Source: Candidatus Gastranaerophilales bacterium (lineage in GTDB: Bacteria > Cyanobacteriota > Vampirovibrionia > Gastranaerophilales > Gastranaerophilaceae). From it: DNA of 34,767 nucleotides. Position 1 is the first letter of the stretch; each line of letters starts with the position of its first letter. Where the stretch lies: NCBI GenBank assembly GCA_944323035.1, contig CALUQY010000019.1, forward strand, positions 1 to 34,767. Reading direction: 5' to 3'. The position numbers were made by a program, and so were the translations under genes. The notes beneath the pieces are model-generated. The model was not told where the DNA came from, ran no database searches, and was given only the letters and a program-made list of their open reading frames with translations. Below, piece by piece: positions 3,794 to 34,767 of this stretch.

Positions 3794-3926
3794 TTAATAA
3801 ATTTGCGTGTTCCATGTGCGCTCGTTTATGTTGCCGGTAAGTGACGGAAGCGTTATCGCTGCAACCACACCGATTATCGTCAGGGATAATAATATCTCTG
3901 CCATTGTGAACGCTGACCGCCGGAAC
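3794..3926 (-). pseudogene. Truncated prepilin N-terminus
   Basis: Reading leftwards, the frame gives FRRSA then FTMAEILLSLTIIGV, VAAITLPSLTGN, INERTWNTQIY and a stop. This is the prepilin cleavage site (Ala before Phe, Glu at +5) and the complete hydrophobic helix, cut off after about 38 mature residues. It lacks the ATG, ribosome binding site and G-run of the intact cassettes. The leader hairpin (3940-3959) is joined almost directly to the RRSAF segment. It is a deletion remnant, though a short helix-only peptide from an upstream TTG cannot be excluded. Confidence 0.8.
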
Positions 3927-5902: not shown

Positions 5903-8170
5903 ATGCATACAGCTAGCTGTCCGTTAGAAAATGAATTATTCAAAAGTGTTTATGCCAAAACACCGGATTATATAAAAGAATTGAACCTTATTGATTTTAA
6001 TGAAAAAGGAGAGTTTACTTTTCTGTTAAAGAAAGAACACCTTGAGCCTTATGATGCTGAAAAAAATCCGCTGGGTTTAGGTTTAAAAGAATGGTTTGCG
6101 AACTATGCCAAAGAGGCAAAAGTTTCGACTGCCGGAATCCGCGGCCCGCAGAATATTCTTTTTCCGCAGGATACAAGATTTCCGATAAATCTTGTCGGGA
6201 TTGTTCTTGCAACGCTTGCCAAAGCACTTGTCGCAAATGAAAAATACCCTGACAAACAAATCGTCAAAGTCGCAGGCCGCGAAGTCAGATATAATTCTGC
6301 AACGTATCTTGAAGCTATCGCACGTATTCAGGCGGCAAACGATATAGTCACACTTCTGCCGTATGAAAAAAAATCTATTCCTATCTGGCTTGCATCATTC
6401 TTAGCGTTCAAACTTGATTTACTCGGCGGAGAATACATTACCTCAAGCCACGGGATTTCAGTTAAAAACGCGACAAAAGACCTTAACTCTCAAGGAAGCC
6501 AGTATCTTCCGGAAGAATCCATGGAATTTGTAAATAAAATTCAGGAAATTTTTGACGAAACCGAAAAAGTTGGTTACTATGCAATAAATTTTGCTTCTGC
6601 GCATGATGAAAAAATCGACCAGAAAGTTATGAAAAAGCTTAATGACGGTGTTGATTTATATGTTGAATATTTAAAATCCGGCGTTGCAAAAGACAGCAAC
6701 CTTGAGTTAATCAAAAATCATCCGGGCAAAATCGTAATAGAAAACGTCGGCGGCTCCGCATACAGAACTCTCAGCCGCGTGCTTGATAAACTTGGCATTG
6801 CAGATAAGTTTGACTGGCTTAACATTGAGGAAGATCCGTTTTTCCACGGAATCGGCAAATACAACAAAACTCCGGACGGCGAAAATGCTTTCTATGATTA
6901 TTCTGTTGATGCCACAGTTATTGCAAGGAAACCGGACGGCGAAACCTTCTTCCCTGTAATAGAAACCCTCGATTACGAAAATAACATCAGAAACTATCCT
7001 ATGGGAACGGTTGTACTTATTACAGACCCTGACCATGACAGGCTGACAATAACCCAAAAAGAACGCGTTAAAAATATGGAACTTTTTGAACAGCAGGGCA
7101 TTGATTACGTTAGGGTAGATGCAAGAACAATTCTTGCCGTATTCAGTGCAAATCAGGCATTCTTAATGCTTATGAACTTCTGGGCAAAACAACTGAAAGC
7201 ACAAAAACTCTGGGATAAGCACCCTAGATTTATCATTAAGACAACTGCTTCTGCGAAATCGTGGGACGAATGGGCTGCCAAAAATGATGTCAAAGTCGTC
7301 AATGTACCGGTAGGGTTCAAGGAAATCGCAAACGTTATGAAAAAAGTTGAACTCCAGCTTCAAAAAGCGCCTAAAAAACCTGTCATCGTAGAAGATGTTT
7401 TTGGAAACGAAATTAACCTCGGGGTTAACCCGCGTCTTTTATTCGGTGGCGAGGAATCCGGCGGAATGATTATGGGTACTGAAGATTTAATTCAATCAAT
7501 GCACGGCAGAAAAGCCATTGCGATGAGAGAAAAAAGCGCTACAGAAGCGATTATCGTTGCGTCAGCGCTCGTTTCGCAGCTCGGGAAAAAGACTCTTGCC
7601 GAACACTTTATCAATCTGCTTAAAGAAAATAATATTACGGCAAAATATGATACAAGAGTAGATATTGCATACTACAACGAATCCGAACCGGATATTGAAA
7701 AATTAAAAGCGGAAAAACTTCTCGGAGAAGAAAAGCGTACGAAAAATGATCTTTTCTATCTTTCTATGGCCATTGCCGTCAGAAAAGGCCTGATGACGCT
7801 TGAAAATGTTAAAGAAGTGCTCGCTGATACATTCAAAGAACTTGATTTTTCAAACCTTACAGACATAAAATTTGTCGGCGACGGAACATATCTGAACTTC
7901 TCAGACAAATATATAGAAATCAGACCGTCCGGAACTGATGCCAAAACAAAAGCCTATGGCGGCGGTGCTGATAAAGAAAATATTGAAACCTTTGCCGGAA
8001 TTTTAGGCAACTATTCAGGAGAAAGAACGGAACTTCATAAAAAATTCATCCCGCAGGATTTCTATGAAAATTCAAAAGAAACAGCGCTGAATTACTATCT
8101 TGATTTTGTTAACAAAGACGCTAACAACGAAAAATTTGAAATTCCGGACTACACGGAATTATTCAGCTAA
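5903..8170 (+). CDS. Phosphoglucomutase/phosphomannomutase family protein, long form
   Basis: This alpha-D-phosphohexomutase interconverts hexose 1- and 6-phosphates and so supplies sugar nucleotides for the surface polysaccharides. The start has GGGAG nine bases upstream. Visible motifs are STAGIRGP (75-82, phosphate contact), TSSHG (180-184) at the phosphoserine loop, DPDHDR (375-380, Mg2+ site), GGEESGG (515-521, sugar-binding loop) and RPSGTDAKTKAY (674-685, distal phosphate site). It has 755 residues against about 450-580 for typical members; the extra length lies mainly between the phosphoserine and metal loops and at the C-terminus. The usual TASHNP is TSSHGI here, so the serine is kept but its surroundings are divergent. 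The exact sugar is uncertain. Confidence 0.88.
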   Translation: MHTASCPLENELFKSVYAKTPDYIKELNLIDFNEKGEFTFLLKKEHLEPYDAEKNPLGLGLKEWFANYAKEAKVSTAGIRGPQNILFPQDTRFPINLVGIVLATLAKALVANEKYPDKQIVKVAGREVRYNSATYLEAIARIQAANDIVTLLPYEKKSIPIWLASFLAFKLDLLGGEYITSSHGISVKNATKDLNSQGSQYLPEESMEFVNKIQEIFDETEKVGYYAINFASAHDEKIDQKVMKKLNDGVDLYVEYLKSGVAKDSNLELIKNHPGKIVIENVGGSAYRTLSRVLDKLGIADKFDWLNIEEDPFFHGIGKYNKTPDGENAFYDYSVDATVIARKPDGETFFPVIETLDYENNIRNYPMGTVVLITDPDHDRLTITQKERVKNMELFEQQGIDYVRVDARTILAVFSANQAFLMLMNFWAKQLKAQKLWDKHPRFIIKTTASAKSWDEWAAKNDVKVVNVPVGFKEIANVMKKVELQLQKAPKKPVIVEDVFGNEINLGVNPRLLFGGEESGGMIMGTEDLIQSMHGRKAIAMREKSATEAIIVASALVSQLGKKTLAEHFINLLKENNITAKYDTRVDIAYYNESEPDIEKLKAEKLLGEEKRTKNDLFYLSMAIAVRKGLMTLENVKEVLADTFKELDFSNLTDIKFVGDGTYLNFSDKYIEIRPSGTDAKTKAYGGGADKENIETFAGILGNYSGERTELHKKFIPQDFYENSKETALNYYLDFVNKDANNEKFEIPDYTELFS

Positions 8171-8180
8171 ATATCCGGAT

Positions 8181-8204
8181 GGCGGACGGATGTCCGCCGC
8201 TTTT
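8181..8204 (+). terminator. GC-rich hairpin after the phosphohexomutase gene
   Basis: GGCGGAC and GTCCGCC pair around GGAT, followed by GCTTTT. It is a short weak terminator or attenuator before the permease gene, whose ribosome binding site begins 14 bases later. Confidence 0.5.
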
Positions 8205-8227
8205 ATGCAAAAACATAAGGAGATACT

Positions 8228-9274
8228 ATGTACAAAAAATGGTTCACAATAAAAAATATAGTTTGTGTTTTACTGCTGATAGCAGTATTGCTGTTTATTC
8301 CACAAATAATGGGTATTTTTCTGCTTTTCTATTCGGCATTTGTTGTTACCTCCTCAATGGAACCGTTCATAGGAAAACTTCAAAAATTTATGAACCGTAA
8401 AATCGCAGCCACACTTGTAGTTCTAGCGTTTATGCTCCTGACATTTTTGACGTTTATCCCTATTCTGGTCGCATCAGTAAACGAAATTATATCCTTCTGT
8501 GAATCTTTGCCGAAAAATATTGATACGGCAACAACATTTATTACCACAAAATCAGCCTTTGGCTACAGACTGGCCGATCTGCTTGATTTACAGGATATTA
8601 TGGCTTCAATGGGCGGAATTGCGCAAAACATTGTTAACAAATCCATTGATTTAACAATGAATCTGGCTGAAATTTGCGTATTTTTAATCGTCTTTACCAT
8701 GATTGTATTCTACTACGCTATTGATAAAGAATATCTTGAAGGCAAATTTGTAGAATTCTTCCCAGTGGATATGAAAGCCTCTGCCAGAAGTATTCTGGAA
8801 ACAATCAGCCTGAAAGTCGGTGCCTACGTCAGAACACAGGTTCTTTCCATGATTTCTGTAGGTGTAATGGTGATGATAGGACTGTGGATTTTGAATATCA
8901 AATATTCATTCCTTCTCGGTTTAATTTCCGGTATCCTTGACATTGTTCCGCTTGTCGGGCCGGCAATTGCACTTGCCGCAATTGTTCTGGCTGCATATTC
9001 GGCCGGCTGGGTTAAAGTTATTCTCGCAATAGCAGTATTCTTTCTCGTCCAGCAGATATCAAATTACGTCATAAGACCATTCCTGTTCGGAAAATTTATG
9101 TCTTTACACCCGCTGACACTGTTTCTGGCGTTATTTATCGCGCAACAGTATTTCGGCGTTGTAGGCGTAATCCTTTCTCCGGCAATCGCATCTACTATCT
9201 GCGTTTTAGTTGATGAACTTTATATAAAGAAAATTAACGAAGAAACACCGGAGCTGATTGCTAATGGAGAATAA
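8228..9274 (+). CDS. AI-2E family transporter (PerM/UPF0118)
   Basis: This is a polytopic inner-membrane protein of 348 residues, the normal family length. Hydrophobic segments lie at about 10-28, 30-45, 60-82, 150-170, 208-235, 238-262, 266-285 and 300-335. The conserved block near PLVGPAIALA (about 240-250) and the stretch ISNYVIRPFLFGK (about 277-290) are typical of the family. Members export small molecules or ions; this one's substrate is not deducible. AAGGAGA lies four bases before the ATG. The gene overlaps the next one by 11 bases. Confidence 0.88.
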   Translation: MYKKWFTIKNIVCVLLLIAVLLFIPQIMGIFLLFYSAFVVTSSMEPFIGKLQKFMNRKIAATLVVLAFMLLTFLTFIPILVASVNEIISFCESLPKNIDTATTFITTKSAFGYRLADLLDLQDIMASMGGIAQNIVNKSIDLTMNLAEICVFLIVFTMIVFYYAIDKEYLEGKFVEFFPVDMKASARSILETISLKVGAYVRTQVLSMISVGVMVMIGLWILNIKYSFLLGLISGILDIVPLVGPAIALAAIVLAAYSAGWVKVILAIAVFFLVQQISNYVIRPFLFGKFMSLHPLTLFLALFIAQQYFGVVGVILSPAIASTICVLVDELYIKKINEETPELIANGE

Positions 9275-10790
9275 ACTCTATACCCCGCCGCAAAATAAAT
9301 CTCCGGAATTGATTTTCTGGTTTTGCTATCCGGCAGTAAATTCTTTTGCGCTCTCCTCTCTGGGCTACTTATGGCTGCTTAAAGAGGCTGAAATGCTGCC
9401 GGATGTTTGCGTTGAAAAAATTACAACCGACACTGAAACAACACGTTTTATGCCGTCGGAAGTAGACTTAATGGCATTTTCGTTCTCGTTTGACTTTGAT
9501 TTCTTAAACATATTACAAATACTTGAAAAGTATAAAATTCCGTTCCGCGCAAGCGAACGCGGCGCTTCTCACCCGTTAATTTTTGCAGGCGGCCCCGTTG
9601 TGAGCGCAAATCCTGAACCGTACCGCGAGTTCTTTGATTTTATAGTAATCGGCGACGGAGAAAATTTAAATACTTCTATTATAAACCTCATTAAGGAAAA
9701 CAAAAACCGTCCGCGTCCTGAAATTCTAAAACTCCTTTCAGAAATTGAAGGGGTTTATGTTCCTTCACTTGAACAAAAAACTGTAATAAAATCCACAAAA
9801 AAATCTTTAGAGTGTATTTATTCGACTATTTTAAGCGATGATTCTTTTTTCAAAGACACATTTATCATTGAAGTTGAGCGCGGCTGCGCAAATTGCTGCC
9901 GTTTTTGTCTTGCCTGCTTTTTAAATCTTCCGATAAGGTTTGTTCCGATTGAGGAGTTGAAACGGGTTATTGATTTGGGGCTTGCGCACACAAACAAAAT
10001 AGCGCTGCTCGGTGCACAAATAAGCGCGCATCCGAAATTTAACGAACTTTGTAAATATATTTATGAAAAAGCACTGGAACGCCCCGAAATCGAGATGAAT
10101 TTTTCTTCCCTGCGGGTCGATGCCGTAACGCCTGACGTTATTAAAACCCTTGTACTTACAGGTTCACACCATTCAACACTTGCCGTTGAAGCCGGAAGCG
10201 AAAGATTAAGAAAAGTTATCAACAAAAACATAACCGAAGAACAAATTTTTTCTGCCGTACGCATTGCAAAAGAAAACGGACTTAAAGGATTCAAATTCTA
10301 TGCAATGATAGGGCTGCCGACCGAAACGCAGGAAGATATTGACGCACTTATATCGCTTGCAAAACGATTGAAAACAAATTTTGCAGGATTTGACATATCT
10401 TTCGGAGTTTCAACATTTGTTCCAAAAGCGCACACTCCGTTCCAGTGGTTCGGACACGAAAACATAAAAAGTCTTGAGAAAAAAAGTAATTATCTGAAAA
10501 AAGAATTTCACAAACTGGGTATAAACATAAGTATTTCCAGCGCAAAATGGGATTACTGGCAGGCGGTTTTATCACGCGGGGACGGAAGTTTTACGCAATT
10601 TTTGATTGACACATATAAGCTCGGCGGCAAGTCCGGCGCCTTTAAACAGGCTGCACGACAAAATAATATAAACACTGATTACTATGCGAATGAGAACTGG
10701 AATCTAAACACAAAACTGCCGTGGGATTTCATAGAATTAAAATCTCCGCCGAAAAATTTCCTGCAAGAGGAATATTCTAAAATTTTATAG
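9264..10790 (+). CDS. B12-binding-like/radical SAM protein, function unknown
   Basis: This is a 508-residue protein. A TTG at 9258 would add two residues; the ATG at 9264 is preferred. Residues 1-150 resemble the cobalamin-binding-like domain found ahead of many radical SAM domains (FIVIGDGEN, FAGGPVVSANPEP). The radical SAM motif at about 210-220 reads C-ANC-C-RF-C, with an extra cysteine inside the loop and another three residues on (CLAC). SAM-binding blocks include EAGSERL and YAMIGLPTET. The overall order is that of the uncharacterised fused radical SAM group near MiaB-type enzymes. It is translationally coupled to the permease upstream (11-base overlap). Confidence 0.82.
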   Translation: MENKLYTPPQNKSPELIFWFCYPAVNSFALSSLGYLWLLKEAEMLPDVCVEKITTDTETTRFMPSEVDLMAFSFSFDFDFLNILQILEKYKIPFRASERGASHPLIFAGGPVVSANPEPYREFFDFIVIGDGENLNTSIINLIKENKNRPRPEILKLLSEIEGVYVPSLEQKTVIKSTKKSLECIYSTILSDDSFFKDTFIIEVERGCANCCRFCLACFLNLPIRFVPIEELKRVIDLGLAHTNKIALLGAQISAHPKFNELCKYIYEKALERPEIEMNFSSLRVDAVTPDVIKTLVLTGSHHSTLAVEAGSERLRKVINKNITEEQIFSAVRIAKENGLKGFKFYAMIGLPTETQEDIDALISLAKRLKTNFAGFDISFGVSTFVPKAHTPFQWFGHENIKSLEKKSNYLKKEFHKLGINISISSAKWDYWQAVLSRGDGSFTQFLIDTYKLGGKSGAFKQAARQNNINTDYYANENWNLNTKLPWDFIELKSPPKNFLQEEYSKIL

Positions 10791-10814
10791 TATAATATCT
10801 TTCACAGGAGAAGT

Positions 10815-11393
10815 ATGATGCACGATTTATTTATAGCAATGAACGGCTGGTTTGAACAATGGGGGCTTTTAGGGTTAGCCATAAACTCCTGTGTGGAAAG
10901 CTTTTTCCTTCTTCCGCCGCCTGATATCCTGCTGATAACAATGGATTTGAAAAACCCGCAGCTTGCGCTGTGGTATGCATTCATCTGCACGCTGTCCTCT
11001 GCCATCGGCGGCGTAATTGGCTACGGTATAGGACTCTTCGGCGGACGCCCTGCTTTTAACCTGCTTTTCAAAAAATATCACAAACAATTTGAAAATGTTG
11101 AAAAGTTATATGACAAATATGGAATGCTCGCTGTGTTTATCTCAGCCTTCACGCCTATTCCATATAAAATTTTTACAATCGCAAGCGGGATTTTAAAAAT
11201 GAATTTCCTTCAATTTTTCCTTGCAAGCTTTGTCGGCAGAGGCGCAAGATTTTTCCTTGTAAGCCTTGTGCTGATGTTCTTTGGAGAAGCTATAAAACAG
11301 TATATTGAACTGGTAATACTCGCTGTTACTGTTCTTATCATAATCTTTTTTGTACTTCTATATAAACATAGAAAAACTTTCACTTCTAAATAA
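10815..11393 (+). CDS. DedA/VTT-domain membrane protein (YqaA-like)
   Basis: This is a 192-residue polytopic protein. AGGAG precedes two successive ATG codons (10815 and 10818); the second has the better spacing, a one-residue difference. Transmembrane or re-entrant segments lie at about 15-35, 50-75, 100-125, 135-155 and 160-185. The SNARE-associated (VTT) core is seen as AFTPIPYKIFTIASG, which carries the family's re-entrant loop with prolines. DedA-family proteins are linked to phospholipid or undecaprenyl-phosphate flipping and membrane-potential homeostasis; the precise substrate here is not shown. It lies 24 bases after the radical SAM gene. Confidence 0.85.
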   Translation: MMHDLFIAMNGWFEQWGLLGLAINSCVESFFLLPPPDILLITMDLKNPQLALWYAFICTLSSAIGGVIGYGIGLFGGRPAFNLLFKKYHKQFENVEKLYDKYGMLAVFISAFTPIPYKIFTIASGILKMNFLQFFLASFVGRGARFFLVSLVLMFFGEAIKQYIELVILAVTVLIIIFFVLLYKHRKTFTSK

Positions 11394-11510
11394 TTCATTC
11401 ATTTACATTAGTGATAAACTTGCAAACTATTGTATAATATGATTAAATAAAGATATAAAGGTTGATTTATTTATAAAAATTATTAAAATTATTTCAAGAG
11501 GTTGATTAAA

Positions 11511-12488
11511 ATGAAAAATATGAAAAAGATATTATTGCTGACAATGTGTACAATAATCGGTGGTTTTACAAGCACTACATTCGCAGCAGAAGATTTCTCT
11601 TTTGATTTGGATGCCGCAATCAATAATGCTGACGATGCAACCGGCGGAACAGATGGCGCGGAAGCAGTTCCAACAGGATCCAGTGCAAAGGCAATTTATC
11701 CGACAGTGGACGCACAGAGCTATTTGACCGCTACAAACAATATGTACTATGATCCGGCACTAATTGAAAGCCTCATTGAAAAATATAATGCAAAAAATTA
11801 TGTCGGCTGCATTCAGGAAGCACAATCCAAAATGCAGCAGGATAACCCTAACCCTGTAGCAATGTACTATATGGCACTTTCATACACTCAGATAGGTGAC
11901 GTTAAAGCTGCTCTGGATTTATATGATGCAATTCTTAAACTTAAACCGGGTGATACTTTAACGGAATGTGCAATAAGAGGACGCGACTGCCTAATCGGCG
12001 GCCCTGCCTGCCCTAACCTCGGAGTTGAAGGCGCTGATATTGATGCGCAGGTTCAAGAATACAAAGAAGAATCTAACCTCATTAATGACAGCACAACCGA
12101 TTTAAAAGAACTTCCGGCAATGCTTGCCATGAATACAGCAGAAGTCCAACCAGCCTTACAAAAAGAAGAACCTGTCATTGAACAGCCGGCTCAACCGCAA
12201 ACGCCAAGTAATGATGACATTGCACAGGCTTTAAAAACACTTCAAAACGCTGGAATGGCAGTGACAATTCAACCAAATGCAATGCCTGCAAATTATAATC
12301 CCGAAATGGCGCAAATGAGCATGCTTCTCGGCAATAACAATAACCAGAACCGCTCACTGGATATGCTTCCTTATATGATGACCCAAATGCAAAATAATCC
12401 GGGCCAGTATAATCCTCAAATGCTTCAGGCTATGATGATGAATTATATGATGCCATCTCTGGATTTTAACTCTGATAACAAATACTAA
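11511..12488 (+). CDS. Secreted TPR-containing protein with Asn/Gln/Met-rich tail
   Basis: This is a 325-residue protein. An upstream TTG at 11502 is in frame, but AAGAGG is nine bases from the ATG at 11511. A signal peptide (KNMKKILLLTMCTIIGGF, with TFAA as likely cleavage site) indicates export. Residues about 85-150 form one or two TPR-like helix pairs (PVAMYYMALSYTQIGDV, then YDAILKLKPGD). The last 90 residues are low-complexity (Pro/Gln, then Asn/Met/Gln with repeated MLPYMM- and MQNNPGQYNPQ-like stretches). I recognise no catalytic motif. Two cysteine pairs could form disulfides outside the cytoplasm. It is probably co-transcribed with the TPR-like gene 19 bases downstream. Confidence 0.8.
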   Translation: MKNMKKILLLTMCTIIGGFTSTTFAAEDFSFDLDAAINNADDATGGTDGAEAVPTGSSAKAIYPTVDAQSYLTATNNMYYDPALIESLIEKYNAKNYVGCIQEAQSKMQQDNPNPVAMYYMALSYTQIGDVKAALDLYDAILKLKPGDTLTECAIRGRDCLIGGPACPNLGVEGADIDAQVQEYKEESNLINDSTTDLKELPAMLAMNTAEVQPALQKEEPVIEQPAQPQTPSNDDIAQALKTLQNAGMAVTIQPNAMPANYNPEMAQMSMLLGNNNNQNRSLDMLPYMMTQMQNNPGQYNPQMLQAMMMNYMMPSLDFNSDNKY

Positions 12489-14021: not shown

Positions 14022-15077
14022 TTATCGTTTGACGCATAACACAGGACGCTGCCCGCTATCAGGTCTTAAGTCATCAACCTGCCCGCCGCGATCACCGCTG
14101 CGCATTACGATTAACAGCATACGGGTTTCGCCGTTCTGCACTATTTTACTGGAAGTCCAATATGCATCATCAAAATTTGCCGATAACAGTTTTTGATTGA
14201 CAAAGATTGTTATCCCTTCCTCAATATTTGGCAGCCGGTATTCACTATCGTAATTAGTGCAGGTTTTTGACGCATCCACCCCGAGGACAGTTCCGCCGGC
14301 CGGAGCCGGAGCAGGCACAGGCATTGCAAGCTTAACATCCGACGGATACATTGCGCTCATAAACCCGATATCTTTGCCGACAGTATTCGGGCCTTTGGTG
14401 CCGTTCAAATCATAAATAAAATTGGCACATATTTTGTTTTGAATATAATAACCAACACCGCCGCCCCAGGGAGTTTCCTGCAAACTTCCGATACATCCGG
14501 GGTTATAATAAACCAAAACACTTTCTCCGTTTTGAGTTTCAAACGCGGCAGCTTTCGTATCTAACATTGACGTTGTATTAAATCCGTTTGATGCTGACAT
14601 CGTCATTTGAGAATTTAATTCAGTCATTGTCTTAGGCGTAGAAATTTGTTCACCGTCAGCAGTTGTTATACGGGAAGCGAAACCACAATCCTCAAGATGA
14701 TTATTATCACAAATATTATTTATTTTCATGATTTTAGATAAACCTGCGGTCACAAAAGTTTCAGCTGCGGTATCCTCAATTGAGGTTGAGCCGGTGGCGC
14801 TGTCGGTAACTTCTTTCAACGTACCATAACCATTTATTGCAGGCATTAATGAGATTGCCTGTGAAAAGCGCGCATATAAAGCTTTTCGCTGCGTGTTCCA
14901 TGTGCGTTCGTTAATGTTGCCGGTGAGTGACAGAAGCGTTATCGCCGCCACCACGCCGATTATCGTCAGGGATAACAGTATCTCCGCCATGGTAAACGCT
15001 GACCGGAAGCCGACCAGCCCATTATGGAACCGGCTCGACCGCCGGTGGATTGCCACGCGGTCTGCGACCGCTCGCAA
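14022..15077 (-). CDS. Type IV prepilin-like protein, poly-G phase-variable, OFF in this sequence
   Basis: The open frame gives 351 residues. The mature protein should start at Phe after SA (RSA | FTMAEILLSLTIIGV): a class III signal with Glu at +5, a hydrophobic helix, then INERTWNTQRKALYARFSQ. The mature part has several cysteines (NNICD, EDCGF, NPGCIG, NKICANF, SKTCTNY, VLCVKR) that may form disulfides. The C-terminal third (YRLPNIEEG to DAYWTSSKI to RPVLC) looks like a ligand- or partner-binding fold. The 15077 start is a bare TTG with no ribosome binding site. The real initiation site is probably the ATG at 15231, behind AAAGGA, separated from this frame by a 13-G run and one base out of register. 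With 12 or 15 G the two join into one ORF of about 400 codons. The leader between ATG and cleavage site would then be about 80 residues and includes a translated family C repeat. Confidence 0.85.
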   Translation of the reverse strand: MRAVADRVAIHRRSSRFHNGLVGFRSAFTMAEILLSLTIIGVVAAITLLSLTGNINERTWNTQRKALYARFSQAISLMPAINGYGTLKEVTDSATGSTSIEDTAAETFVTAGLSKIMKINNICDNNHLEDCGFASRITTADGEQISTPKTMTELNSQMTMSASNGFNTTSMLDTKAAAFETQNGESVLVYYNPGCIGSLQETPWGGGVGYYIQNKICANFIYDLNGTKGPNTVGKDIGFMSAMYPSDVKLAMPVPAPAPAGGTVLGVDASKTCTNYDSEYRLPNIEEGITIFVNQKLLSANFDDAYWTSSKIVQNGETRMLLIVMRSGDRGGQVDDLRPDSGQRPVLCVKR

Positions 15078-15081
15078 TGAC
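15047..15081 (-). repeat. Dispersed repeat family C, copy 2, inside the prepilin leader
   Basis: A GGATTGCCACG to CAATGAC element lies within the open frame and contributes SLRAVADRVAIHRR to the prepilin leader region. The prepilin gene at 34555 lacks it, so it is an insertion that kept the frame open. Confidence 0.65.
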
Positions 15082-15165
15082 GGATACTTTACGGCCTTCG
15101 TGCTTACTTCTTTCGTTAAATTCCCACTCGGGTCGCTTTGTGGATGCCGCTCAGCGGCCGACTCC

Positions 15166-15231
15166 TCAATTGTGCCTGTTAAGAGAGGCCCCCCCCCCCC
15201 CTGATAAAATGCTTACTCTTCGGTTTTTCAT
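15166..15231 (-). other. Out-of-frame leader peptide of the prepilin gene (OFF product)
   Basis: ATG at 15231, preceded by AAAGGA seven bases away, reads MKNRRVSILSGGGGASLNRHN and stops. The four Gly codons are the G-run. A second ATG at 15238 is in another frame and has no properly spaced ribosome binding site. It is the predicted product when the G-run is 13 long. Confidence 0.6.
15189..15201 (-). repeat. Homopolymer tract, 13 G on the coding strand
   Basis: Thirteen consecutive C on the plus strand, 30 bases after the ATG at 15231. The prepilin frame is offset by one (15231 to 15077 is 154 bases). Loss of one G or gain of two restores it. The tract matches the 12-G run at 34604-34615 in position and context. 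Confidence 0.9.
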
Positions 15232-15251: not shown

Positions 15252-15463
15252 CTAGTTAATCAGTTAAACAGTTAATAAGTTAATTAGGATTATGGGAGTT
15301 TATCCGGGTTTATTTTCGTCAATTCGGTCATATCCCTTATTAACTCTTTAACCTATTAACTTATTAACTTTTCTCGTCCTTTCGACAATTACGACTCTTT
15401 GCCTTATTCTCTTATTGCCTCATTGCCACTCTTATTATGTTACCATGTTTTGAGTTTAGTCAA
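15252..15463 (-). repeat. Prepilin-cassette leader, copy 3
   Basis: It has octamer arrays GTTAAT (15254-15288) and ATTAAC (about 15338-15371) around the conserved core, and TTGCC-type octamers near 15395-15430. It lacks the GTTGGGCT hairpin of copies 1, 2 and 4. It drives the ATG at 15231 after about 195 leader bases. Confidence 0.8.
15434..15463 (-). promoter_or_regulatory. Promoter of prepilin leader copy 3
   Basis: On the minus strand TTGACT (15463-15458), 18 bases, CATAAT (15439-15434). The -35 begins two bases after the stop codon of the upstream transferase gene, with no terminator between them, so read-through from that operon is possible. Confidence 0.65.
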
Positions 15464-34322: not shown

Positions 34323-34351
34323 TTGACAAAAATCCGAACATAAGTCATAAT
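34323..34351 (+). promoter_or_regulatory. Promoter of prepilin leader copy 4
   Basis: TTGACA, 17 bases, CATAAT: the same -10 and near-identical -35 as the other three leader copies. Confidence 0.75.
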
Positions 34352-34554
34352 TAAAAAGGCAATAAGGCAATAAGTGAATAAGGCAATAAGTCATTATGGT
34401 CAAAAGTCCTATTGCCCTAATGCCTTAATGACCTATTGCCTTATACAAGTAGGTTGGGCTTGCCAGCCCAACGCAACAAAAAGAATGTTCCGGCGTTTTT
34501 GCCGGTAGCATAATTAGACCCGGGAGATAGCCCGGAGAAAGGATAGAAAAACTT
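34352..34554 (+). repeat. Prepilin-cassette leader, copy 4 (GGCAATAA variant)
   Basis: Four forward octamers of the GGCAATAA type (34358-34389), a 19-base centre, then four opposing octamers of the TATTGCC type (34409-34440) can fold into one long stem. The centre GTCATTATGGTCAAAAG matches the first core of copies 1 and 2; the GTTAAT arrays and second core are absent. The GTTGGGCT/AGCCCAAC hairpin (34453-34472) is kept. A GAGAAAGGATAGAAAA ribosome binding site follows. Confidence 0.8.
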
Positions 34555-34767
34555 ATGAAAAATTTAGAAGCTGAAAACCCTTGTACTATGGGCATTCTGG
34601 TCAGGGGGGGGGGGGCAAGCCGAGCTGAGCCGGTTCCATAATGGGCTGGTCGGCTTACGGTCAGCGTTTACAATGGCCGAAATTTTGCTTTCCCTCACGA
34701 TTATCGGTGTGGTTGCGGCGATAACCTTGCCAAGCCTTACCGGCAACATCAACGAACGAACTTGGAA
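34555..34767 (+). CDS. Prepilin-like gene, 5' part, poly-G phase-variable, OFF in this sequence
   Basis: The ATG at 34555 reads MKNLEAENPCTMGILVRGGG, then ASRAEPVP and a stop (34639-34641). In another frame, from 34616, the sequence reads QAELSRFHNGLVGLRSA then FTMAEILLSLTIIGV and continues past the window edge through LPSLTGNINERTW. The two frames meet at the 12-G run; 11 or 14 G would join them into one prepilin with a leader of about 40 residues. FHNGLVG-RSA and the helix are almost identical to those of the 14022-15077 gene. The gene continues beyond the window. Confidence 0.8.
34604..34615 (+). repeat. Homopolymer tract, 12 G
   Basis: Twelve consecutive G, 49 bases after the ATG at 34555. 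It occupies the same place in the cassette as the 13-G run at 15189-15201, between the start codon and the prepilin cleavage site. Confidence 0.9.

Follow-up and report, generated by a model that had tools for sequence, protein, structure and literature searches.

Analysis of a 34,767-nucleotide stretch of DNA (hereafter, the window), corresponding to contig C19 of a Candidatus Gastranaerophilus genome (G000; 1.935 Mb, 41 contigs, 99.9% complete), identifies stochastic phase variation through poly-G tracts as the very probable means by which this organism varies a large pilin-adhesin repertoire. The reading is drawn from sequence, and it is from sequence that we infer real-time switching, expression, incorporation into pili and ligand binding. 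Direct reading and a pattern search revealed only two G-runs of at least 8 in the window, one of 12 G at positions 34604-34615 of the forward strand and one of 13 G at 15189-15201 of the reverse strand. The window contains 11 overlapping G 8-mers against 0.37 expected, and 0 of 100 dinucleotide shuffles reached 11, bearing out the contention of the initial annotation that the tract is not a chance run. Its reading of a 12 G tract lying between a well-signalled ATG (34555) and a prepilin sequence, with 11 or 14 G restoring the frame, is also correct, as is its report of two out-of-frame loci with the same tract, designated here copy 2 (12 G) and copy 1 (13 G, which needs 12 or 15).

Copy 2 is preceded on the forward strand by a sigma-70-type promoter at 34323-34351 (TTGACA at 34323-34328, 17-nt spacer, CATAAT at 34346-34351), and the corresponding pattern, TTGAC[ATC]-N17-[TC]A.AAT, occurs upstream of 43 of the 58 G000 tract loci. 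Its 5' untranslated region (34355-34539) is predicted to form three strong hairpins, the fold of 34355-34600 having an energy of -74.7 kcal/mol (z = -4.1; 0 of 200 shuffles equally stable). Strong hairpins are found in the 5' untranslated regions of the tract genes, with sequences that differ by locus (AATAAGGCAATAAG and TTAACTTATTAACT types). The AGGA Shine-Dalgarno (SD) sequence at 34540-34543 is followed by the ATG at 34555 and a 49-nt prepilin leader (34555-34603; MKNLEAENPCTMGILV), of a class also present at about 10 G000 loci and on the pilin targeted by a diversity-generating retroelement (DGR; MYMKNKKAENPCNMGILT). With the 12 G of the tract (34604-34615) the frame meets a TAA ahead of the prepilin, and the locus is predicted to be OFF; with 11 or 14 G it reads MKNLEAENPCTMGILV-RGGG-QAELSRFHNGLVGLRSA-FTMAEILLSL. 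A 17-residue linker (QAELSRFHNGLVGLRSA in frame; 34616-34666) connects the tract to the prepilin cleavage site, and a search of the in-frame read for an internal ATG, GTG or TTG start found none. The mature type IV pilin (FTMAEILLSLTIIGVVAAITLPSLTGNINERTW; 34667-34767) begins with F at 34667, and only 34 of its residues are visible because the record stops at 34767, the end of the contig.

Copy 1, on the reverse strand, has a promoter at 15434-15463 (TTGACT, 18-nt spacer, CATAAT), a start codon and leader (MKNRRVSILS) at 15202-15231, and the 13 G tract at 15189-15201, likewise predicted to be OFF, with 12 or 15 G restoring the frame. The 64-aa linker that follows (14997-15188) consists of REP-like palindromic sequence, yet is open in the prepilin frame. 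It leads into a complete mature pilin of 324 aa plus stop (14022-14996), for which alignment and modeling indicate a long N-terminal helix and an alpha/beta body, with a putative Lcl or C-type-lectin-like C-terminal head at model residues 206-324 (14025-14381). A third prepilin copy (3797-3913, reverse strand) is a remnant in which promoter and untranslated region are normal, leader and tract are deleted, and the reading frame breaks off about 39 residues into the mature pilin.

To place these loci in their genomic context, we surveyed G000 for G-runs of at least 8 using context-aware searches and the sequence stretches around each tract. The genome contains 86 such runs, 77 of which lie behind an SD-preceded ATG leader. 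Among these 77 leader-tract loci, 59 run into an open prepilin frame and 8 more remain open up to a contig end, 67 in all; classified by frame, the 59 comprise 13 predicted ON and 46 predicted OFF loci, which extends the listing of arrangement, tract length and state from the window to the genome. A protein search matched 100 prepilin sequences, of which about 88 are close AFTMAEILLSL copies. For 20 prepilin copies no tract was detected; about 10 of these have a complete, readable leader that lacks the tract (e.g., MKNLAFTMAEILL), and most of the others are cut by a contig end. The initial annotation would have been undermined had most copies lacked a G-run, and the balance of 67 gated to about 10 tract-less copies points instead to a large gated set accompanied by a small, constitutive-looking one. 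Several tracts in G000 lie outside prepilin leaders (L058, L066:10612, L080; L072; L009, L010; L061), some of them sharing the context G(13-19)-ATTGCTTAACAGG and others in unrelated ORFs, and these are likely further phase-variable genes.

Several features indicate that the sequence on both sides of the tract is under translational constraint. Leader lengths fall into classes (29/32, 30/33 and 49/52/55 nt) that differ by codon steps. Although linkers span 4 to 253 aa, 57 of 61 loci have a tract-to-prepilin distance divisible by three. Of the 57 loci with linkers of at least 60 nt, 54 are open in the prepilin frame, where shuffling predicts 2.5; the other two frames give 0 of 114. Judged from this frame constraint, leader and post-tract linker are predicted to be translated. 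Linkers are long in G000 (median 85 aa) and short in three sister species, G001, G002 and G004 (median 5-9 aa), where the leaders are consequently of ordinary prepilin size. In G000, G003 and G006 the linkers are expanded, up to 253 aa and nearly always in frame, by REP-like palindromic repeats (GTCATTGCGAGCGGTCGCAGACCGCGTGGCAATCC and similar), which recall the Rickettsia palindromic elements found inside genes.

On the strength of alignment and modeled structure, the tract-gated proteins are type IV pilins with a hypervariable, lectin-like C-terminal head. The mature pilins are mostly about 300-339 aa long, and their mean pairwise identity falls from 92% in the first 60 residues to about 33% at the C-terminal end. 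They follow a class III leader with cleavage before F, (A/G)-FTMAEILLSLTIIGVVAAITLP, and the glutamate at +5 is invariant in 54 sequences. An AlphaFold model based on these 54 sequences (pLDDT 86) has a 48-residue N-terminal helix (residues 3-50), the hydrophobic alpha-1 of type IV pilins, and its C-terminal 120 residues superimpose on the C-terminal domain of Legionella Lcl (8q4e; VIA-align Z 11.0, 1.7 A over 92 residues) and on Bdellovibrio Bd2740 (Z 9.9). Foldseek on its own returned only weak C-type-lectin matches for the model. The Lcl_C domain is detected in 40 of the 54 members at E<=0.01 (best 1e-8); copy 1 of the window, searched alone against Pfam, gave no match, with Lcl_C below the sequence threshold, and it was alignment and fold that revealed the domain. 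GspH and GspG pseudopilin models match only the first 48 or so residues (20.9 bits against a cut-off of 80), that is, the N-terminal helix, so a lectin-tipped type IV pilin fits better, and identity as GspH/GspG pseudopilins was rejected for want of a full-length family match. The initial proposal of a family of separately switched pseudopilins hence stands as regards the gated family, whose members are predicted to be full type IV prepilins with a lectin-like head, and needs revision as regards independence, given that phases are non-random, unlike what simple independent switching would produce. One copy of the prepilin peptidase (PF01478) is present in six of the seven genus genomes, including G000, and none was found in G006 (95% complete). 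A pilus assembly ATPase and platform have been reported for a termite Gastranaerophilus genome (PMC5877343).

The arrangement is shared by six of the seven genus genomes, G000 included, five of the sister species harboring 72-82 tracts each. The remaining one, G005, lacks G9 tracts altogether and yields just 19 prepilin matches, compared with 100-126 in the other genus genomes. A GTDB scan placed the arrangement in the Candidatus Gastranaerophilales, including Ca. Gastranaerophilus phascolarctosicola Zag_221; its single Planctomycetota match was discarded as a chance match, and a scan of IMG/VR for tract-prepilin arrangements returned none. We also rejected the notion that poly-G tracts are restricted to the genus, since tracts of G9 or longer occur in 51 of 60 Gastranaerophilaceae genomes and prepilin-leader tracts are present in another genus (G027/G085), where 10 of 11 sampled tracts lie in the leaders of a different pilin (GFTLAEVLITLGIIGVVAA). 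None of the tracts sampled from G080, G022 and G034 belongs to a prepilin leader. In other genera, 72-97 tracts of G9 or longer were counted per genome (G069, G072, G019, G027, G009). Poly-G phase variation may be a trait of the whole Gastranaerophilaceae family. In addition, an assembly labelled Fusobacterium sp. NALB_7963_5 (JAMPIJ010000000; L152 and others) is Gastranaerophilus-like and matches G002, its label being evidently wrong. The assemblies are all drafts, mostly metagenome-assembled genomes (MAGs), and several contigs end at tract-pilin repeats.

Tract lengths are far from constant, another point on which the initial annotation could have failed: they range from 8 to 16 G among the G000 paralogs and differ between species at orthologous positions. 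At orthologous sites of G000 and its close relative G003 with the same or a similar leader and the same module, tracts measure 13/14 (L015/L227), 13/12 (L084/L230) and 13/14 G (L043/L258), and are equal at two others (L052/L222, 13/13; L053/L203, 12/12). The tract of the DGR-target pilin has 12, 15 and 11 G in G000, G003 and G004, corresponding to predicted OFF, OFF and ON states, which brings to at least four the orthologous tracts whose length and frame change from one species to another. Many orthologous G000/G003 sites hold different leader/tract/linker cassettes, suggesting that cassettes also move by recombination. Three hallmarks of a contingency locus are represented: a slippable mononucleotide tract in the 5' coding region (77 loci), an otherwise intact frame toggled by a length change of one unit (59 loci classified), and, from between-species comparison, tract polymorphism at the same locus. 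Loss of MutS was considered as a source of tract instability and rejected, MutS and MutS2 being present in all seven genus genomes.

The distribution of phases is markedly uneven. Counts of ON, +1 and -1 loci are 13/43/3 in G000, 5/29/2 in G001, 4/19/4 in G003 and 3/12/1 in G006, all non-random (chi-square p 2.7e-10 to 0.0016), and near random in G002 (18/13/10) and G004 (5/5/2). The +1 phase prevails in the former four species even though the modal length differs by class (12, 13, 14 or 16 G), and seven tracts of 10-11 G in G027, from another genus, all lie in the opposite phase, as worked out by hand. These counts indicate that tract lengths cluster around a species-specific value. The same-phase excess could stem from mutational equilibrium, selection for OFF, recent copying of cassettes, slippage decoding or base-calling bias, all of which are possible.

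A potential second source of variation was identified on contig C16 of G000, at positions 7953-12351 of the reverse strand (L063, L344, L388). This locus comprises a tract-gated pilin ORF with a 12 G tract (11224-12351), a bAvd protein (9623-10015; PF22296, 1.4e-11), a template repeat (TR; 9209-9346) and a reverse transcriptase with IGNLTSQ and YVDD motifs (7953-9236). The TR and the variable repeat (VR) are distinguished by 11 changes over 138 positions, and 9 of these affect adenines (34 A in the TR; Fisher p 5e-5). With a reverse transcriptase, an Avd protein, an adenine-specific TR/VR pair and a target of lectin fold, the element is, by its sequence features, a DGR. It is conserved in sister species, the reverse transcriptase being present in all seven genus genomes; the target pilin lacks a tract in both G005 and G002, the VR falls in an assembly gap in G004, and in G002 it has the same protein sequence as the TR. 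Comparison of the TR with the examined G000 pilins gave no match except the C16 target, copy 2 of the window ending before its VR. Ten codons of the TR are AAY, and they coincide with the columns where the paralogs vary most (entropy 3.62 vs 2.51; permutation p < 5e-5), an overlap that fits descent of the paralogs from DGR products and that a shared binding surface would also produce. That all pilin diversity is fresh DGR output was rejected, given that third codon positions are equally variable and that no examined G000 pilin other than the C16 target matches the TR.

Taken together, these observations suggest a mechanism in which each prepilin gene would be driven by a separate promoter and carry a run of about 12-14 G within its leader-coding part. 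Replication slippage would alter tract length, with one length in three joining the start codon to the prepilin to yield a pilin (ON), and translation at the other two lengths stopping in or just after the tract (OFF). Prepilin peptidase would then remove the leader, glycine run included, so that the mature pilin would be unchanged by the manner of switching. Since the assembly helix is nearly invariant and the lectin-like heads differ strongly, the set of pilins that are ON would decide which surfaces are bound or which antigens are shown, and one gated pilin would additionally be diversified by the DGR. A more tentative extension, which we regard as possible though somewhat less than evenly favored, is a two-tier repertoire, in which the DGR rewrites the head of one gated pilin, its products are duplicated as complete genes, and slippage picks among about 70-80 heads per cell. 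If true, this would be the bacterial equivalent of an antigen or receptor repertoire, generated, archived and stochastically expressed.

Other interpretations were considered as well. The OFF loci, which form the majority, could be mainly a silent archive of rarely expressed genes that supply sequence for recombination at a few expression sites, in the manner of Neisseria pilS, with the tract keeping them quiet. The exchange of cassettes between orthologous G000 and G003 sites agrees with such an archive, as does the coincidence of TR adenine codons with the most variable paralog columns (3.62 vs 2.51), as if the paralogs were retired DGR products. Silent donors, however, need neither promoter, SD, start codon nor intact frame, all of which are kept in most copies (the promoter at 43/58), and the linker frames are under clear translational constraint, making this explanation unlikely. 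Less probable still is that +1 is the working state, with ribosomal or transcriptional slippage decoding the genes at a low, constant level by programmed frameshifting. In its favor, four species share a single +1 phase at 70-81% of their loci, across modal lengths of 12, 13, 14 and 16 G, and 7 of 8 contig-truncated loci agree; a single directional mechanism nonetheless misfits the near-uniform phases of G002 and G004 (ON in 18/41 and 5/12), the opposite phase of the seven G027 tracts and the presence of ON loci in every species.

Two further explanations have only a slim chance of being correct. Pilins might be made by internal initiation downstream of the tract, which would then be a by-product of a repeat-rich leader. 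Among 59 G000 loci, all but 4 contain an in-frame ATG, GTG or TTG between tract and prepilin, and an SD-like motif accompanies the in-frame starts of the long linkers at 18 of 59. No such start follows the tract in copy 2 of the window, in 39 of 41 G002 loci or in 12 of 12 G004 loci, which implies that the G002 and G004 tracts must be translated, and the upstream SD, ATG and leader frame are conserved. By this start-codon evidence, internal initiation is ruled out in G002 and G004; the exclusion does not extend to every expanded G000 locus, and bypass of the tract could occur at some of them. Equally improbable is that tract lengths were misread in assembly or base-calling and the genes are simply in frame. 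Long G homopolymers are indeed error-prone, G004 has scaffold gaps inside tracts, and a systematic +1 could be instrumental, but the recurrence of G-runs in six genomes from several projects, the 8-16 G spread and the opposite biases between genomes are unlike a single error mode. We therefore retain phase variation by stochastic tract slippage as the preferred reading. It provides a testable case for surface variation in gut commensals and a caution for MAGs, in which automatic pilin annotation misses the true start wherever the frame is shifted.

Among pathogens, Neisseria and Campylobacter provide classic examples of G-tract phase variation, and the tract of Neisseria pilC sits in the signal-peptide region. 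The pilins described here also resemble the Neisseria pilE/pilS system in the number of pilin copies, with a conserved N-terminus and a variable C-terminus. The pilS copies are promoterless and incomplete, whereas most copies here have a promoter, SD, start codon and switch of their own, and recombination is suggested only by the exchange of cassettes between species. Neisseria genomes contain on average 15-19 poly-G tracts, with a modal length of 9-10, which switch pilC and pilin glycosylation (PMC5953494), and 115 meningococcal genes vary by simple sequence repeats (SSRs; PMC5084427). The likeness to the Neisseria poly-G loci (pilC, pglA, lgtA; PMC5953494, PMC5084427) lies in an in-frame G tract, ON/OFF control by frame shift and the involvement of surface structures, including pilus function, switching in the present case being predicted from sequence. 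The tracts reported here differ in number (72-86 per genome), in modal length (12-13), in belonging mostly to one paralogous family and in their location within the genes for the pilin subunits proper. The lineage that carries them is an uncultured one of the gut, neighboring the Cyanobacteria; its tract number is about 4-5 times that reported per Neisseria genome, and the tracts are concentrated in one pilin-adhesin family.

The lectin-like head and its diversification likewise have counterparts in other systems. The C-terminal domain of Legionella Lcl and the tip of Bdellovibrio Bd2740 share the C-type-lectin-like adhesive head (Z 11.0 and 9.9), which in their case sits on collagen-like or MAT fibres instead of type IV pilins (PMC10769870). 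In Bacteroides, pilus tips are subject to DGR diversification (PMC12632263, a review that cites Macadangdang et al.), and the likeness lies in a retroelement that diversifies the binding head of a pilus protein and in heads of lectin type. The Bacteroides targets are type V tip pilins, whereas the predicted target here is of type IV, has a gating G tract and is set amid scores of putatively phase-variable paralogs; a DGR acting on a gated pilin would join two known diversification systems in one gene. Searches of an open-access literature collection returned nothing on phase variation in Gastranaerophilales or on DGRs in Melainabacteria. The class of mechanism is known, and its scale, its host lineage, the placement of the tract in pilin-subunit leaders and the overlap with a DGR are, to our knowledge, new.
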